DNA of 36,453 nt from Synechococcales cyanobacterium PMM_0083 (GCA_949127665.1 CASBQE010000161.1:1-36453), one strand, 5' to 3'. Counted from the first letter of the stretch, positions 8,414-14,961 are shown. The notes: a model not told the origin generated them from the letters alone. Translations and numbers: made by a program.

Positions 8414-9511
8414 TTATTCCGGCACGATCGCGACTTTAATCACCTTGCGATCGCGCATGTCTTCAAACACTTGCTCTAGATTGCTGAGGGACTGTTCGCC
8501 ACTGAGCAGCAGTTCAAACGGCACAGCACGACTAGCTAAAAGATTCAGGGCTGCCCGAACGTATTGAGGCGTGTTATGAAAAACGCCTTTGAGGGTGAGT
8601 TCGCTGTAGTGAAGTTGGTCTGTGTTAACTGTGATCGTCGTATCGCGGGGGCAGCCACCAAACAGGTTCACCGTGGCACCTGGACGGGCACAGGCGATCG
8701 CCATTTCCCACACAGAAGGAACCCCGGTCGCCTCAATTACCACATCGGCTCCCCAGCCATCGGTCAGGTCCTTGACCAATGCCGGGACATCTTCAACCTG
8801 CTTGTAGTTAAAGGTTTTCACTGCACCCAACTTTTCGCCGACTTGCAAGCGGGAGGCGTTGCCGCCAAACAGAAAAACTTCGGAGAAGGGCGCGGGGTGA
8901 GGGGTGAGGGGCGAAGGGGCAATCCAGTCGCCTCTCCCGGACGATAGCGCGGCAACGAACATGAGACCGATAGCGCCATCCCCCAAAATTACGACGCGAT
9001 CGCCGGGTTTTACGTGCGATCGGGCGGCTCCGTGCAGCACACAGGCGAGTGGCTCGGTCATGGATGCCAAGTCATAAGGCAAATCGTCTGGAATGGGTAG
9101 CAGGTTGTGCTGCACGATCGCTGCGGGAATTTTGAGATACTCCGCAAAGGTGCCGTTGTTAAACAGCAAATTTTGGCAGAGGGAATATTCGCGCTTCCGG
9201 CAGAAAAAGCAGGTCATGCAAGGAGCAGAGTTATTGGCAACCACGCGATCGCCTAGATGCCAGCCTTCTACGCCTGCGCCCAACGCCACAATTTCTCCCG
9301 CTGCTTCATGCCCAAATGGGGTCGGTGGCTTTAGCATCTTGGCATGTCCGCCCCTGCGCCACACTTTCAAATCGGTGCCGCAGGTGGTCGCCGCTTTCAC
9401 GCGAATCACGACTTCTCCAGCAGCAGGAGTGGGGTCTGCAACCTGCTCCAGCCGTAAGTCTTCTTTGCCATACAGTAATGCAGCCAACACAGGGCGATCG
9501 CTCCAACTCAA
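8414..9511 (-). CDS. Zinc-dependent medium-chain alcohol/L-threonine-type dehydrogenase
   Basis: TTCGTDLKVWRRGGH, PFGHEAAGEIVALGAGV, CFFCRKREYSLC, VILGDGAIGLMFV, WGADVVIEATG; contains an unusual insertion RGDWIAPSPLTPHPAPF. Confidence 0.85.
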   Translation of the reverse strand: MSWSDRPVLAALLYGKEDLRLEQVADPTPAAGEVVIRVKAATTCGTDLKVWRRGGHAKMLKPPTPFGHEAAGEIVALGAGVEGWHLGDRVVANNSAPCMTCFFCRKREYSLCQNLLFNNGTFAEYLKIPAAIVQHNLLPIPDDLPYDLASMTEPLACVLHGAARSHVKPGDRVVILGDGAIGLMFVAALSSGRGDWIAPSPLTPHPAPFSEVFLFGGNASRLQVGEKLGAVKTFNYKQVEDVPALVKDLTDGWGADVVIEATGVPSVWEMAIACARPGATVNLFGGCPRDTTITVNTDQLHYSELTLKGVFHNTPQYVRAALNLLASRAVPFELLLSGEQSLSNLEQVFEDMRDRKVIKVAIVPE

Positions 9512-9532: not shown

Positions 9533-10291
9533 CTACAGCCCTGCAAACCACTCGTAGCCAAAATCTTCCCAATAGCCCAGTTTCGATGGCAGTTGACTCA
9601 GCAGCGTCACCCGTGTCACCCACTTAGATTGTTTATAGCCCAGCTTGATCGGGGCTGCTAGTCTCAGCGGTGCGCCGTTTTCAATGGGCAATGGCTGACC
9701 ATTTTTTTGATACGCCAACATCGTTTGGGGATGCAGTGTGGAGGCAAGATCCCAGCTTTCGTAGTAGCCATCGGCAGACTCAAAGTAGGCATAGCGAACT
9801 GTGGATTTAGGCTGAGCGCGCCGAATGAGTTCACCCAAACTCACCCCGCCCCACTGGACGATCGCCGCCCAGCCTTCTACACACACATGCCGAATCACCA
9901 TTGAGGTCAGGGGCATTGACTGGATTTCTGCCAGACTTAGGCTCAAGGGTTGGGCGACATCGCCATCCACTATTAAGCGAAAAGTGGTGCGATCGAGGTT
10001 CGGTGTCGTATCAAACGAATTAATCAGCAGAGCTTCCGGCTCAATTGCGCTGACTGGAAACTCTGGCACCAACGCTTGCGGGTTGAGCAGCAACTCTTCC
10101 ACCCGTTGGTTGAGCGGATCAATCGTGGCTCCCACCTGCTCAGCAATGGAGGTGGAAGCACAACTGCCCAGCAGCAACCCCATGCCTGATAATCCAGAAA
10201 GCTGTAACAATCTCCGACGGGTTAGCACTGGGCGAGGGGTTTGAATAATTGGCATAGCAGTAGCCCTAGAGAATGAAAGATTAACGGACAA
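9533..10291 (-). CDS. Sulfite-oxidase-fold (YedY/MsrP-like) molybdopterin oxidoreductase, Tat lipoprotein
   Basis: TRRRLLQLSGLSGMGLLLGSC (twin-arginine plus lipobox); Moco-cysteine motif VIRHVCVEGW; GAPLRLAAPIKLGYKQSKWVTRV typical of the family. Confidence 0.8.
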   Translation of the reverse strand: MSVNLSFSRATAMPIIQTPRPVLTRRRLLQLSGLSGMGLLLGSCASTSIAEQVGATIDPLNQRVEELLLNPQALVPEFPVSAIEPEALLINSFDTTPNLDRTTFRLIVDGDVAQPLSLSLAEIQSMPLTSMVIRHVCVEGWAAIVQWGGVSLGELIRRAQPKSTVRYAYFESADGYYESWDLASTLHPQTMLAYQKNGQPLPIENGAPLRLAAPIKLGYKQSKWVTRVTLLSQLPSKLGYWEDFGYEWFAGL

Positions 10292-10892
10292 AGATCGAGC
10301 GGATCAGCCGCATACTGCCAACCCGAAACGCCAGTAGAGAATGGATCAGCGTAAACCCAAGCACAATCGGCACTGTGATAAAATGAACGGTGCGGAGCGT
10401 TTGCCAACTGCCAAACAGACTTGCCAACCAGGGAAGTTGAGCGGGTTTATACATGGCTAGCCCACTGGCGATCGCCAGCAGCAGGATTGGAATAATCGCC
10501 GTATATACGACCCGATGCCATGCATAGGTTTTACGCTTGGCATTTTGCGACACTTGCAGCGCCTTCAAATCACTGCTAGACACGTAGCGCTGCTGCCAGC
10601 GACGAGAGATGAGAATGAATAGCCCATACGCCAGCAGGTTAAGCGAATACACCCACATAAAGGTGAAGTGCCAATCTCGCCCCCCTGCCAACCAGCCGCC
10701 TAAGAGCAACCCTTTGGGAAAATGCCATCCCTCCCGTCCGCCAAATACTGGATTGGCATTGTAAATTTGCAAGCCACTGCTCATCATCAGCAACAGACTA
10801 ATAATATTGACCCAGTGAAAGGCTTTCGCAAAGATTGCCTGTTTGGGGACGACCGCTTTTTTCGGTAATTTGGCAGGCTGGGAAATTGTCAT
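10281..10892 (-). CDS. Cytochrome b561-like membrane protein (putative redox partner of the molybdoenzyme)
   Basis: Multi-TM protein with His residues in TM segments (AKAFHWVNIISLLLMMSSGLQIYN, HFTFMWVYSLNLLAYGLF, HRVVYTAIIPILLLAIASGLAMY, RTVHFITVPIVLGFTLIHSLLAF); overlaps the downstream molybdoenzyme gene by 11 bp. Confidence 0.75.
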   Translation of the reverse strand: MTISQPAKLPKKAVVPKQAIFAKAFHWVNIISLLLMMSSGLQIYNANPVFGGREGWHFPKGLLLGGWLAGGRDWHFTFMWVYSLNLLAYGLFILISRRWQQRYVSSSDLKALQVSQNAKRKTYAWHRVVYTAIIPILLLAIASGLAMYKPAQLPWLASLFGSWQTLRTVHFITVPIVLGFTLIHSLLAFRVGSMRLIRSIFVR

Positions 10893-10901
10893 GAATAATC
10901 T

Positions 10902-11423
10902 CTACTTGCCTAAGCTGGCGTAGCCGAATGTTGCATTAAATTTGCGGCACCAAATCGCCACGCTAGAGAAATTCTCTGGCTTCACCGATTGAGGCAGCGC
11001 ATACCGTTGAGCGCCGGAAACCTTTTGCAGTTTTGCCACCGCCACATAATCTTTTTCTTTAATGCCAGTGATGGGTGGCTGACCAGTACGATACAAAATC
11101 ACGTATAGATCGGGACCTGCATCAGTCTTAAAGGTTTGGTCGAATGCCAGATAAGATTTGCCGCCTTCGTTGACCAGCATGACAGATCCCTGAGTGGGAT
11201 GTTCAGCTTTAACAAATTTGCCCGATCGCATTGCCATCGTTCCTGGCTTCATCATGCTGCCGCTAGGGTTTTTCATACTGCCTTCCGGCTTCATCATGCT
11301 GCCCTCTGGCTTCATAGCGGGAGCATTTTGAGAGCTAACAGATTGATACTCTGCAACTGTGACAACCGTAGTGATTGCAATCAGAGAAATCAGGCTAAAA
11401 AAGCGTTGCAATTTCATAATCAA
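10902..11423 (-). CDS. DM13 domain protein with Met-rich N-terminal linker
   Basis: Signal sequence; linker MKPEGSMMKPEGSMKNPSGSMMKPGTMAM; DM13-like core KFVKAEHPTQGSVMLVNEGGKSYLAFDQTFKTDAGPDLYVILYR...VAIWCRKFNATFGYASL. Confidence 0.75.
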   Translation of the reverse strand: MIMKLQRFFSLISLIAITTVVTVAEYQSVSSQNAPAMKPEGSMMKPEGSMKNPSGSMMKPGTMAMRSGKFVKAEHPTQGSVMLVNEGGKSYLAFDQTFKTDAGPDLYVILYRTGQPPITGIKEKDYVAVAKLQKVSGAQRYALPQSVKPENFSSVAIWCRKFNATFGYASLGK

Positions 11424-11462
11424 ACTCCTTAAATAATTGATTTACTTGAATATCTGAACAAT

Positions 11463-12167
11463 TTACAAACGTGCGGCGGGAAATAGCGGTGCCAGCCAAA
11501 GCTGCACTTGCACATCCCAGCCCAACAAAATTGCGATCGCAGTTGCGGCGATCAATCCGCCACCAATCCGCTGGAGTGCCGCGCTGTAGGGACGTAATTT
11601 TAGGACTGAGCGCCCAACATATCGCCCAGAGTAAGCGATCGCCAGCAGTGGCAAACTCGCCCCCACGCCAAATGCCAGCAGCAGCCCAAAAACCTGTGTA
11701 ACCTCTTGCTGCACCGCTGCCAACACAACAATGCTGCCCAAAACGGGACCCGCACAGGGAGTCCACAGCAGCCCCAATTGAGTGCCCAGCAGAAACTCGC
11801 CCCATAGTCCAACCCGTTTAGGTTCTTTCAAACCGTCGAGCCGCAGATAGCTAAATAAGCGATAGCTCCAAGCTGGAAATAGCGCTAATAGACCTAGAAA
11901 CAGCAGCAGCACGATCGCAAAGGTTCTTAAGCCACTCGCGAATCCGGCAATCCATTGACTGGTAAATGCCAACAAGCTGCCTGCTGCGGCAAACCCACCG
12001 ACCAACCCCGCAACTAACGCCACCGCCCCATAGCGATGAGACTGAAGCGATCGCCCGACCAAAATCGGCAAAATTGGCAAGACACAAGGAGACAATACGG
12101 TTAGTATTCCAGCCAAAAACGCTAGCCCAACGGAAAGTGAGGAAGTAGACATAAGCAGAAAGCTCAA
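11463..12167 (-). CDS. CcdA/DsbD-type transmembrane thiol-disulfide protein
   Basis: AFLAGILTVLSPCVLPILPILVG and LGLLWTPCAGPVLGSIVVLAAV: paired cysteine motifs of the CcdA family. Confidence 0.88.
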   Translation of the reverse strand: MSFLLMSTSSLSVGLAFLAGILTVLSPCVLPILPILVGRSLQSHRYGAVALVAGLVGGFAAAGSLLAFTSQWIAGFASGLRTFAIVLLLFLGLLALFPAWSYRLFSYLRLDGLKEPKRVGLWGEFLLGTQLGLLWTPCAGPVLGSIVVLAAVQQEVTQVFGLLLAFGVGASLPLLAIAYSGRYVGRSVLKLRPYSAALQRIGGGLIAATAIAILLGWDVQVQLWLAPLFPAARL

Positions 12168-12209
12168 GAGTTTTCAGGTGGCGGGTTTCAAGGATCAGAA
12201 ACCTGATTT

Positions 12210-12809
12210 CTATGTCAACAACTTCCGAATCATTTTGTCTGTTTCGTCGTAGGCACCTTCGCCAATATGGTCATAGCGAATAATTCCTTGGCGATCGGCT
12301 AAAAATAAGTGGGGCCAATACTCATTTTTATAGGCACTCCAGGTTTTGAACTGGTTGTCCATCGGCACGGCGTAGGTAATGCCATGCTTCTGTAATGCTT
12401 GCTTGACGTTGTTTACATCACGCTCAAAGGCAAATTCAGGCGTGTGAATGCCAACCACTTTTAGCCCTTTGGCAGCATATTGCTGATGCCAGCGAACTAC
12501 AGACGGGAGGGTGCGCTGACAGTTAATGCAAGCAAAAGTCCAAAACTGGATCAGCGCTACATTTCCTTTGAGGGAATCAACGGTTAGCGGCGGGGAATTC
12601 AGCCATTGAGAAATGCCCTGAAATTCTGGTAGGCGATTGGTAGAAGTGGCGGCAAGATTGGTCGTGCGATCGCTGACTGTTGCAGACGCTTGAGCGTCAG
12701 GCACAGACGATTCCTCATGAAGGCGACTAGCTAGGGTTACGCCACCAGCCCCGATGAGTCCTAAGCCAAGATAGGTCAACATTCGACGACGCTGTAAAAG
12801 AGAACTCAT
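12210..12809 (-). CDS. DipZ/TlpA-like redoxin (thioredoxin fold), Tat- or Sec-exported
   Basis: RRRMLTYLGLGLIGAGG signal; IQFWTFACINCQRTLPSVVRWHQQYAAKGLKVVGIHTPEFAFERDVNNVKQAL..YAVPMDNQFKTWSAYKNEYWPHLFLADRQGIIRYDHIGEGAYDETD, strongly DipZ-redoxin-like with CINC active site. Confidence 0.88.
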   Translation of the reverse strand: MSSLLQRRRMLTYLGLGLIGAGGVTLASRLHEESSVPDAQASATVSDRTTNLAATSTNRLPEFQGISQWLNSPPLTVDSLKGNVALIQFWTFACINCQRTLPSVVRWHQQYAAKGLKVVGIHTPEFAFERDVNNVKQALQKHGITYAVPMDNQFKTWSAYKNEYWPHLFLADRQGIIRYDHIGEGAYDETDKMIRKLLT

Positions 12810-12843
12810 AGAAATACCTGCAAGAAGGTTTGCATTAACTGGA

Positions 12844-13218
12844 CTACTGCTTCATGGCATCGCCTTCCTTTTTCATTGCGTCACCCTTCATCGCGCCGCC
12901 TTCTTTTTTCATGGCATCGCCTTTCATCGCACTACCTTCCTTCTTCATCGCATCGCCTTTCATCGCGTCACCTTTCATTGCGCTACCTTCTTTTTTCATT
13001 GCGTCGCCCTTCATCGCATCACCCGTGGTGCTTGCCGCAGGTGAAGCAGAAGTGCCGGGAGTTGCTTGATTGGCACCGCCAGAGCAAGAAGCCAAACCAG
13101 CGGTAATCACTAAACTTGCTGCCAAACCCAAAACTTTTAAGTTCATCATTTTTCTCAAGCCTTTAGATGTATGTGTATTTGTGGGGCAAGAATCGTTTTT
13201 GTTCTTTCCTAGTGACAT
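12844..13218 (-). CDS. Met/Lys-rich pentapeptide-type repeat lipoprotein (MrpX-like)
   Basis: LVITAGLASCSGG lipobox; C-terminal repeat DAMKGDAMKKEGSAMKGDAMKGDAMKKEGSAMKGDAMKKEGGAMKGDAMKKEGDAMKQ. Likely start MMNLKVLG (about 13149); the supplied ORF extends to 13218. Confidence 0.75.
   Translation of the reverse strand: MSLGKNKNDSCPTNTHTSKGLRKMMNLKVLGLAASLVITAGLASCSGGANQATPGTSASPAASTTGDAMKGDAMKKEGSAMKGDAMKGDAMKKEGSAMKGDAMKKEGGAMKGDAMKKEGDAMKQ
12850..13035. repeat. Imperfect tandem repeat DNA encoding AMKGD/AMKKEG units
   Basis: Repeated ttcatcgc(a/g)(t/c)c(a/g)cc... and ttctttttcat blocks across the 3' half of the lipoprotein gene. Confidence 0.8.
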
Positions 13219-13270
13219 ACGAATGGGTTAAGCGATCGGATTAAAGTTTTTTGCCAGGTTGCAAACGACC

Positions 13271-13304
13271 CGACTGATGTTCTTAATGGGTTCACATCCA
13301 GTCG
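13271..13304. promoter_or_regulatory. Inverted repeat in the divergent sigma/lipoprotein intergenic region
   Basis: cgactgatgt (13271-13280) and acatccagtcg (13294-13304), 10-bp complementary arms with a single bulge, 13-nt spacer. Confidence 0.4.
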
Positions 13305-13449
13305 CATCCAATTCTTGCTATCACACGTAATTTAGATAGGAAGTGATGTGTAGATTTGAAATTGTGGGTGTTTTCATGAACTAAAGTGAAATTCTTGAGC
13401 AAATAGCGTTTAGCCTAAATTGGGCATTGATTGGTTTCTTCTTTTTAGG

Positions 13450-13560
13450 CAGGACTTAGGCAAATCAACCGAATTTGCCCTCCAACCTCCAATTCTGGGG
13501 GATCTAGAGATCAAAGTCCCCCAGAATTGTGGGATCTAGGGGGCGAGTGCATAAGTCCTG
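13450..13560. mobile_element. MITE-like repeat (about 111 bp) with TIR CAGGACTTA(G/T)GCA and internal hairpin
   Basis: caggacttaggca (13450-13462) versus tgcataagtcctg (13548-13560), 12/13 complementary; internal perfect 11-bp hairpin aattctggggg (13491-13501) / cccccagaatt (13518-13528). Confidence 0.65.
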
Positions 13561-13619
13561 TATCTAAAACTGCTGCTCAATCAGGGTTGATGTAGAACTT
13601 GTCTCAAAAACGTGAATCT

Positions 13620-14198
13620 ATGAATTTCGAGCCTTCTGATTCGCCCCCAATTCCCACTGATGCGGAGTTGTTTCAGGCGATGCAAGCTAAACAGCACTCT
13701 GCTCTGGCGGCGCTTTACGATCGCTACGCTAGCCTAGTGTATAGATTGGCGTTGAGAGTTTTGCTGAATCCGCAGGAAGCCGAAGATTTGACTCAAGAAA
13801 TTTTTTTGAAACTTTGGCGCAGCAGCACCTATGACGTAAACCGAGGTTCTTTAAGCAGTTTTTTGACCACCTTGACGCGATCGCGGGCAATTGATCGACT
13901 CCGTTCACGCAGCAGCAATCTCAAGTCTCTTCAGCGCTGGGGCAACACCATGACCACTCAACCGCCGCCGACCACACCGTTTGAAGCCGCATCCATCCAT
14001 CAACGTTCGGAGCATGTACGCGATGCCTTGGCTGACCTGCCCGAAAAGTATCGACAAATCCTGGAGCTGGCGTATTACGAAGGGCTGAGCCAGTCAGAAA
14101 TTGCTGCCCGGTTAGAGATTCCCTTGGGAACGGTGAAATCCTGGTCGCGCCAAGGATTGCTCACCCTCAGAAAAACCTTACAGACCTGGATTGAATAA
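13620..14198 (+). CDS. ECF-type RNA polymerase sigma factor (SigK-like)
   Basis: LYDRYASLVYRLALRVLLNPQEAEDLTQEIFLKLWRSSTYD (region 2) and LADLPEKYRQILELAYYEGLSQSEIAARLEIPLGTVKSWSRQGLLTLRKTL (region 4). ORF opens at TTG 13599; ATG 13620 is the likelier start. Confidence 0.9.
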   Translation: MNFEPSDSPPIPTDAELFQAMQAKQHSALAALYDRYASLVYRLALRVLLNPQEAEDLTQEIFLKLWRSSTYDVNRGSLSSFLTTLTRSRAIDRLRSRSSNLKSLQRWGNTMTTQPPPTTPFEAASIHQRSEHVRDALADLPEKYRQILELAYYEGLSQSEIAARLEIPLGTVKSWSRQGLLTLRKTLQTWIE

Positions 14199-14961
14199 TC
14201 GCGTTATGGCTGAACCCATTTATCCTGAATCGTCCTATTCTGAACATTCGCACGAGCTAATGGCTGGTTACGTATTGGGCAATCTTACGTCTGAGGAAGC
14301 TGAAGAGTTGCAGCAACTCTTGGCTGCCCATCCCGAACTAGGCGAGGAAATGCACAGCCTGCAAGATGTGCTGGCAGCGATGCCCTACGCCCTACCGGAA
14401 GTGCAGCCTGCCGCAGCGGTGCGATCGCGCATTCTCACCGCTGCTCAAAATCAAGCAGTGCCAATTCGTCGGCGCGATCGCCGCCAGTCAATGATTCTAT
14501 GGGGCGGTAGCATTGCCGCCGTTCTCGCACTGGCGATGGGATTAGACAATTTGAATTTGCGGCAACAGCTTGCCACGACTCAAGCCAAGATTTCCTCCCA
14601 AAAAGACCTGATTGCCATGCTGCAAGCACCCCAAACTAAGTTGGTGAATTTAAAAGGCATGGATCAACTGGCGAAAGCGACGGGAAATGTAGTGATTACG
14701 CCGGGAGAAGCAGGGGCGATCGTCGTGCTGCAAGATCTGCCAACCCTACCACCCGGACAAACCTATAACCTCTGGGCGGTTGCCAACGGTCAAAAGGTTT
14801 CAGCGGGAAATTTCACCGCAAATCCCCAAGGCAGAGTATTTGTGAAGGTGCCTCTAACCTCAGCAACCAGCGATCGCGTCACCAATCTCGTTGTCACGAT
14901 CGAAGCTTCGCCTACACCAGTTTCGCCTCAAGGTCCGATGGTGATGACTAGCAGCCTGTAA
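14191..14961 (+). CDS. Anti-sigma factor (RskA/anti-sigma-K family)
   Basis: Overlaps the sigma gene by 8 bp; HELMAGYVLGNLTSEEAEELQQLLAAHPEL zinc-finger-like N-terminus, single TM, C-terminal domain with VVLQDLPTLPPGQTYNLWAV..G.KVSAGNFT...VTIEASPTPVSPQGPMVMTSSL typical of RskA. Confidence 0.9.
   Translation: MNNRVMAEPIYPESSYSEHSHELMAGYVLGNLTSEEAEELQQLLAAHPELGEEMHSLQDVLAAMPYALPEVQPAAAVRSRILTAAQNQAVPIRRRDRRQSMILWGGSIAAVLALAMGLDNLNLRQQLATTQAKISSQKDLIAMLQAPQTKLVNLKGMDQLAKATGNVVITPGEAGAIVVLQDLPTLPPGQTYNLWAVANGQKVSAGNFTANPQGRVFVKVPLTSATSDRVTNLVVTIEASPTPVSPQGPMVMTSSL

Follow-up and report, generated by a model that had tools for sequence, protein, structure and literature searches.

The window analyzed here is a 36,453-nt stretch of DNA from Synechococcales cyanobacterium PMM_0083, one entire contig of a 4.6 Mb cyanobacterial assembly that is 85.9% complete. 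It carries an extracytoplasmic function (ECF) sigma factor gene and an RskA-type anti-sigma gene that diverge from a six-gene operon encoding, 5' to 3', a methionine-repeat (Met-repeat) lipoprotein, a DipZ-type redoxin, CcdA, a DM13 protein, a cytochrome b, and a lipoprotein molybdoenzyme exported by twin-arginine translocation (Tat). The locus can be read with good confidence as a dedicated envelope methionine-oxidation defense regulon, in which an oxidant-absorbing Met-rich protein would be combined with the repair of methionine sulfoxide (Met-SO). What carries this reading is directly observed: which genes are present, how they are conserved, and their shared promoter, key residues, and homologies.

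A sequence-only reading had assigned these products to eight genes at 9533–14961, and all eight open reading frames are present on the coordinates and strands that it gave, with Pfam matches above the curated cut-offs for Oxidored_molyb, Ni_hydr_CYTB, DM13, DsbD_TM, AhpC-TSA/Redoxin, Sigma70 r2 and r4, and RskA_C. The gaps between the six minus-strand genes are 34, 42, 39, 9, and −11 bp, so that these genes read as one transcription unit.

Conservation of the module and its methionine-repeat protein

The conservation of the locus was surveyed in 146 genomes of the class, 53 of which contain a close relative of the molybdoenzyme. The cytochrome b gene lies almost always directly 5' of the enzyme gene (approximately 68 loci), and in approximately 20 loci spread over many families, the pair is accompanied by the redoxin and CcdA, in either order. 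The close redoxin is present in 29 genomes, and 27 of these encode the enzyme too (Fisher p = 1e-12). Linkage of the sigma pair to the module is seen in several families, and in some of them, the operon includes DM13. For instance, Nostoc sp. LEGE 06077 has the Met repeat, redoxin, CcdA, DM13, cytochrome b, and enzyme in an order identical to that of the window, and the module is also present in named Pseudanabaena biceps, Phormidesmis priestleyi, Oculatella, and Chamaesiphon genomes. The sequence-only reading had treated these genes, the DipZ-type redoxin and CcdA included, as one module and had named a lack of conserved synteny across cyanobacteria as grounds for giving it up; the search was run, and synteny was found across many cyanobacterial families.

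The Met-repeat lipoprotein of the window has a mature part of 80 amino acids with 10 methionines. It matched no Pfam family and scores 33.8 bits against the NCBIfam model penta_MxKDx (TIGR02953; cut-off 41), a model that its L062 counterpart, from the same locus, passes with 92 bits. DAMK arrays, searched for in the 146 genomes with a DNA pattern for two neighboring DAMK units, are present in 22 of them (reversed-pattern control, 0), and all 22 fall among the 53 enzyme-bearing genomes (p = 7e-12). Among the matches listed, the distance from array to enzyme is approximately 3.5 kb or less, or the array is on the split contig of the enzyme. Two sites stand apart from this: a second, solitary array in G095 and a site in G039 outside the matches listed. 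The solitary array (L238, G095:C1 ~2564925) belongs to a DAMK-repeat lipoprotein far from any molybdoenzyme and is the one clear exception. The 39 distinct proteins comprise 355 DAMK units, and near-units in which Met, Asp, or Lys is replaced number 10, 28, and 30, respectively. D, A, K, and G are each written with alternating codons in the window array, yet the protein repeat stays constant, which argues that the protein is maintained for its repeats, beside this enzyme pair. The arrays stand almost all beside the cytochrome b/molybdoenzyme pair, in support of the earlier proposal that a sacrificial Met-rich peptide belongs with this pair.

Met-rich periplasmic proteins are often copper-binding, and DM13 and CcdA/redoxin are general redox parts. 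Both points count for a role in metal handling, in which the Met-rich proteins would bind periplasmic Cu(I)/Ag(I), the redoxin/CcdA and DM13 would keep copper sites reduced, and the molybdoenzyme pair would be a passenger; in addition, one proteobacterial homolog has cueR and a metal ATPase at a distance of 4 kb. However, the methionines recur every 5 to 8 residues (DAMKG, DAMKKEGS) together with Lys and Asp and do not form MxxM/MxM copper motifs, no copper gene recurs beside the module in the surveyed loci, and MsrA and MsrB recur and have the same promoter (see below), which makes a metal-handling role very improbable.

Promoter box and predicted sigma regulon

The sigma and Met-repeat genes share a promoter box, [C/A]ATCC[A/G]-N15-CGTA (16 bases separate ATCC from CGTA), which was read by eye from the leaders of both. 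Of 37 sigma genes, 25 have it on their 5' side, as do 20 of 40 Met-repeat genes, compared with 7 of 1504 other genes at the same loci, and these leader counts are descriptive, as the box was defined from the leaders before counting. The box precedes all 16 Met-repeat genes with a sigma gene within 3.5 kb and 5 of the 24 without one (p = 3e-7), and for some of these five, the contig ends before a sigma gene could appear. The window carries one box per direction (Table 1).

Thirteen matches to the box are present in the whole 4.6 Mb genome (reversed-pattern control, 9). Two are in the window, nine are inside long reading frames, and one is at 1.2 kb from the next gene; only three stand before genes, namely those of the sigma factor, the lipoprotein, and an exported MsrA. 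This thirteenth box (9310-9285) lies 94 bp 5' of the start codon of the unlinked MsrA gene (G000:C313, gene 9191-8469). The chance of a box within 150 bp, on the correct strand, before one named gene is approximately 2e-4, and the MsrA result is independent of how the box was defined. The exported MsrA genes of G118, G024, and G109, which are genomes with a linked sigma gene, are boxed too, 63–87 bp 5' of the start, and none of 15 cytosolic MsrA genes has the box. The strict box has three matches in G145 and six in G053, and two per genome are the sigma and Met-repeat promoters. Judged by these promoters, the sigma/anti-sigma switch almost certainly turns on the neighboring six-gene operon, and the same sigma probably turns on the unlinked exported MsrA gene as well. 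Sigma control of the operon had already been proposed, and the common box on both divergent units bears it out; the boxed MsrA, together with MsrA and MsrB in related modules, lends independent support to the proposed theme of Met-SO repair.

The sigma pair could also stand beside the operon by chance, with the operon under other control. Sigma and operon are apart in many genomes, the sigmas linked to the module are not one clade, with at least four gains or losses of linkage in the sigma tree, and some sigma-less modules carry other repeated boxes (CTGAG). Nevertheless, with a common promoter on both divergent units of the window and before every sigma-near Met-repeat gene, a chance neighborhood is hardly credible.

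The CTGAG boxes are repeated 5' of the Met-repeat gene in the sigma-less modules L035, L155, L157, and L158, and a GAF histidine kinase adjoins the module in L035; another regulator may have taken over in such modules. In two genomes where the sigma pair sits away from the module, a divergent gene for a Tat-exported ferritin-like protein with the Met-rich linker MPGQSMMPQNSMPGNSMM has the box on its 5' side (L104:7571-8257, L108:6489-7295); such proteins would be another class of Met-rich targets for sigmas of this group. An exported MsrB-like gene in the genome of the window (G000:C119:6886-7380) has no box.

Of the sigma factor regions, only 2 and 4 are present (Sigma70_r2 and r4_2 both score above cut-off), and an RskA_C partner adjoins, which places the protein among the ECF sigma factors (group 4); it passes PRK12519 at 278.7 bits (cut-off 222). 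The pair had been described as SigK/RskA-like, and the anti-sigma half of this description stands: both RskA_C (75.7 bits; cut-off 29.4) and NF052375 (113 bits; cut-off 100) are passed, and an RskA-type anti-sigma accompanies the sigma in nearly all loci. The sigma factor itself is rejected as SigK, since it belongs to PRK12519, scores 141 bits against the NCBIfam SigK model PRK09646 (cut-off 226), and contains no cysteine anywhere, so that the pair C133/C183, conserved in 94% of ECF18 and 56% of ECF19 SigK (PMC7509140), is absent. NrsF, as in ECF16-type control, was also considered for the anti-sigma, which is of the RskA type instead. In L115 and L116, where the module is absent, a DM13 gene is located directly 5' of a sigma/anti-sigma pair from the subfamily of the window sigma, which suggests that the association of DM13 with these sigmas is old.

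Several start codons were revised (Table 1). The lipoprotein start at 13218 cannot be real because the conserved promoter −10 (CGTAT, 13221-13217) sits on that ATG; the start is 13149 or 13146, so that the protein begins with the ordinary lipoprotein signal M(M)NLKVLGLAASLVITAGLASC. For the molybdoenzyme, the ATG at 10255 is the more likely start, and the protein then begins MPIIQTPRPVLTRRRLLQL. The sigma and anti-sigma genes, earlier described as overlapping, form a pair as claimed, but they overlap only with TTG starts; the probable ATG starts abolish the overlap. The promoter box lies 294 nt 5' of the sigma reading frame in the window compared with 31–162 nt in relatives, and this long leader is largely explained by a repeat inserted downstream of the sigma promoter, ahead of the gene. 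The repeat resembles a miniature inverted-repeat transposable element (MITE), with a hairpin inside and the terminal inverted repeats CAGGACTTAGGCA / TGCATAAGTCCTG, and is not part of the mechanism. A zinc alcohol dehydrogenase gene (8414-9511) is found on the same strand, 22 bp 3' of the molybdoenzyme gene; it was dropped as a seventh operon gene, as no homolog adjoins the enzyme in any other locus.

Table 1. Genes, predicted promoters, and the mobile repeat of the locus, in window coordinates.
Feature	Position	Strand	Basis or remark
Tat-dependent lipoprotein molybdoenzyme, sulfite-oxidase family	9533..10255	-	invariant catalytic Cys137; probable start, revised from 10291
b561-type cytochrome b (PF01292)	10281..10892	-	Pfam; candidate heme ligands conserved
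Exported DM13-domain protein with Met-rich linker; optional module member	10902..11423	-	Pfam; C159 invariant
CcdA/DsbD_TM membrane thiol transporter	11463..12167	-	family score; C28 and C138 invariant
Tat-exported redoxin with CINC, DipZ C-terminal-domain type	12210..12809	-	domain, best-structure match, invariant residues
Met/Lys-rich DAMK-repeat lipoprotein, proposed sacrificial oxidant sink	12844..13149	-	start revised from 13218
Predicted six-gene operon promoter AATCC-N16-CGTAT	13217..13242	-	box pattern
Predicted sigma-gene promoter CATCC-N16-CGTAA	13305..13330	+	box pattern
Small MITE-like mobile repeat	13450..13560	.	terminal inverted repeats; 5 places in genome
ECF sigma factor, PRK12519 cyanobacterial subfamily, SigK-like	13599..14198	+	profile matches; probable ATG start 13620
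RskA-type anti-sigma factor, RskA_C extracytoplasmic domain	14191..14961	+	profile matches; probable ATG start 14206

Molybdoenzyme pair and proposed thiol branch

The molybdoenzyme has a twin-arginine motif, a lipobox, and a cysteine, Cys137 (numbered from the reading-frame start at 10291), that is aligned to the molybdenum cofactor cysteine of Escherichia coli MsrP (RMRCVEAW) and is invariant in 19 sequences. Its earlier identification as YedY-like/MsrP did not hold, and the name was rejected: the enzyme scores 92 bits against the NCBIfam MsrP equivalog (cut-off 207), is 25% identical to E. coli MsrP, which falls far outside in the tree, and has a cytochrome b561 (PF01292) as its partner instead of the ferric-reductase-like MsrQ. 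In this cytochrome b, H26, H75, H170, and H184 are invariant or 99% conserved among 91 sequences, proteobacterial ones included, and are candidate heme ligands. A second cytochrome b/molybdoenzyme pair with a 67% identical enzyme is encoded elsewhere in the genome (G000:C122:6057-7467; L037, L254), with no Met repeat, redoxin, or box.

As a member of the sulfite-oxidase superfamily, the molybdoenzyme might instead oxidize or reduce sulfite or another small molecule, coupled to quinone via the cytochrome b, with the Met-rich protein merely shielding it. The failed MsrP cut-off agrees with such a role, as does the structure search, in which an AlphaFold model (pLDDT 70) submitted to Foldseek scored SorA and MsrP level. 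The sulfite dehydrogenase models SorA, SorT, and SoxC gave 54, 26, and 53 bits (cut-offs 600, 570, and 420, respectively), and the enzyme has a single PF00174 domain and lacks a C-terminal dimerization domain, like MsrP and unlike SorA/sulfite oxidase. MsrP is also its best family and best PDB sequence match, and its nearest non-cyanobacterial homologs cluster with MXKDX, MsrA, and MsrB, which favors a Met-SO reductase and leaves a small-molecule enzyme distinctly unlikely.

Several observations weigh against a Met-SO defense regulon, besides the descriptive nature of the leader counts. The failed MsrP cut-off and the distance in the tree mean that homology does not fix the substrate. Many cyanobacterial cytochrome b/molybdoenzyme pairs have no recognized Met-repeat protein, redoxin, or sigma nearby, from which it follows that the pair has other or broader work. 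The exported MsrA genes of G034, G014, G095, and G105 lack the box, and MsrA is absent from the window itself. Lastly, 19 of the 40 Met-repeat genes have neither a box nor a nearby sigma; control thus varies among lineages.

The best solved relative of the redoxin is Mycobacterium tuberculosis DipZ (2hyx/5cyy), with 154 bits against 36 bits for ResA. R7, R8, C94, and C97 are invariant, both CINC cysteines being kept. It is thus a DipZ-type redoxin domain, encoded apart from CcdA (separate genes, 234 and 199 amino acids for CcdA and redoxin) rather than fused to it in one chain. CcdA scores 39.8 bits for DsbD_TM (cut-off 27.1), with C28 and C138 invariant in 60 sequences, and the DM13 protein, whose Met-rich linker is missing from most relatives, scores 102.5 bits (cut-off 25) and has C159 invariant in 26 sequences.

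In L097, L094, L146, and L158, an MsrA gene separates CcdA from cytochrome b. MsrA also adjoins the enzyme in Chamaesiphon (L160) and is divergent in L043, and in both L149 and L043, MsrB adjoins the module. In approximately 12 non-cyanobacterial loci, this redoxin type likewise has MsrA and MsrB beside it. Because MsrA and MsrB recur beside this redoxin type and in the modules, gene neighborhood points to the DipZ-type redoxin as a putative thiol donor for exported Msr enzymes. Cyanobacterial CcdA-type proteins act in cytochrome c maturation, and in some genomes (L122-L128), redoxin-CcdA is found away from the enzyme, in keeping with a service to cytochrome c maturation or another disulfide pathway that is only co-regulated with the operon. 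Such a service is unlikely, given that the redoxin fits DipZ far better than ResA, that its type adjoins MsrA/MsrB in non-cyanobacteria, and that MsrA is part of several cyanobacterial modules.

Related systems and proposed mechanism

Enzyme relatives outside cyanobacteria were sampled through plasmids, and the closest ones found have 38%–40% identity and form one family with the cyanobacterial enzymes in the tree. Methylobacterium (NZ_CP099614) has the cluster MXKDX-ECF-NrsF-msrB-msrA-cytochrome b-enzyme; in Caballeronia (NZ_CP071132), NrsF-ECF is divergent from cytochrome b-enzyme-MXKDX; Rahnella (NZ_CP089920) and Yersinia ruckeri have cytochrome b-enzyme-MXKDX; in a Sphingomonas plasmid (NZ_CP117026), NrsF-ECF is divergent from thioredoxin-CcdA-DUF1223-cytochrome b-enzyme. 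Like the window, these clusters possess the homologous cytochrome b/molybdoenzyme pair and, in all but Sphingomonas, an MXKDX peptide, together with ECF/NrsF or two-component genes, msrA/msrB in Methylobacterium, and thioredoxin-CcdA in Sphingomonas. They differ from it in the NrsF-type control where a sigma is present, in the absence of DM13, and in the enzyme identity given above.

In Azospira suillum, MrpX/YedY1 under SigF/NrsF is described to protect against hypochlorite (Melnyk et al., 2015, via PMC5748585). As far as this secondary description goes, the system resembles the window in its ECF sigma/anti-sigma, periplasmic Met-rich peptide, molybdoenzyme with membrane cytochrome, and operon logic, and its Met-SO reductase is the molybdoenzyme YedY1 with the membrane cytochrome YedZ (PMC5748585). 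It differs in its NrsF anti-sigma, and the published descriptions used for the comparison mention no DipZ-type redoxin, CcdA, or DM13. In Brucella melitensis, induction by hypochlorous acid (HOCl) and resistance to it were demonstrated for BcrXQP under BcrS/AbcS, where BcrX, a Met-repeat protein of the MXKDX type, is cotranscribed with a membrane/molybdoenzyme pair under ECF control, as predicted for the window (PMC8315932). The Brucella sigma is an ECF16 with a six-transmembrane NrsF-family anti-sigma bearing sensor cysteines (PMC8315932), its −35/−10 is TGTAAC/GCGAAA compared with CATCC/CGTA in the window, and its operon has no redoxin, CcdA, or DM13.

The mycobacterial SigK/RskA regulon shares with the presumed regulon of the window an RskA-type anti-sigma, a SigK-like sigma, a DipZ-type redoxin, and a CcdA-type membrane part. 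In the window, however, the sigma is below the SigK cut-off and lacks the SigK cysteine pair, the DipZ domains are on separate proteins, and the Met-repeat lipoprotein, cytochrome b, and molybdoenzyme stand in place of MPT70/MPT83. E. coli MsrP/MsrQ likewise has a Tat-exported enzyme of the sulfite-oxidase family with a single molybdenum cofactor domain, a conserved cysteine, and a membrane heme partner; the window differs from it in the low enzyme identity, the lipoprotein nature of the enzyme, the PF01292 partner, and the Met-rich peptide in the operon.

The window has the gene content of the MrpX/BcrXQP type, namely a Met-rich exported repeat protein, a cytochrome b, and a sulfite-oxidase-family enzyme beside an ECF pair, and by sequence, its predicted Met-SO buffering and repair regulon is a variant of this kind. 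Its enzyme likely belongs to the same subfamily as those of Azospira and Brucella, an assignment set by cluster descriptions rather than sequences. The sequence-only reading knew of no description of this gene combination in cyanobacteria. A literature search that did not reach key subscription-journal papers found no cyanobacterial description of the module, in agreement with this, but the combination is not entirely novel, since the Sphingomonas plasmid already unites ECF/NrsF with thioredoxin-CcdA-DUF1223-cytochrome b-molybdoenzyme. The kind of system is known, and its novelty here lies in the switch, in the addition of a thiol branch, in the DM13 part, and in a cyanobacterial regulon with an unlinked msrA.

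For the release of the sigma, the substrate, the flow of electrons, and the oxidant, we infer the following scheme. In the resting cell, the RskA-type anti-sigma would bind the ECF sigma and release it in response to an oxidant signal in the envelope; the free sigma would then transcribe its own gene pair, the six-gene operon, and the unlinked exported MsrA gene via [C/A]ATCC-N16-CGTA promoters. The DAMK-repeat lipoprotein would offer cheap methionines that are oxidized instead of other proteins, and the Met-rich linker of the window DM13 protein would provide additional oxidant-reactive methionines. Reduction would follow two routes: in the first, electrons would pass from quinone via the b561-type cytochrome b to the Tat-lipoprotein molybdoenzyme, which would reduce Met-SO directly; in the second, they would pass from cytosolic thioredoxin via CcdA and the DipZ-type redoxin to exported MsrA/MsrB. 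DM13 may serve as an optional redox accessory.

Chances are about even that the module constitutes a widespread, dedicated periplasmic Met-redox buffer of cyanobacteria with its own ECF regulon, two simultaneous electron sources (quinone and cytosolic thiols), an RskA-type switch independent of NrsF, and DM13 as an electron-transfer part. Oxygenic phototrophs produce oxidants all day. The literature search revealed no dedicated regulon for the repair of oxidized envelope methionine in these organisms, and the present locus would supply one. Its promoter is predicted, its proposed substrate protein lends itself to tracking by mass spectrometry, and its two electron routes would be separable. 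The same effector pair would be wired to two kinds of anti-sigma switch, one in cyanobacteria and another in Proteobacteria. Furthermore, the locus suggests a candidate job for three poorly defined parts: the b561/molybdoenzyme pair, the DipZ-type redoxins found by MsrA/MsrB, and DM13.

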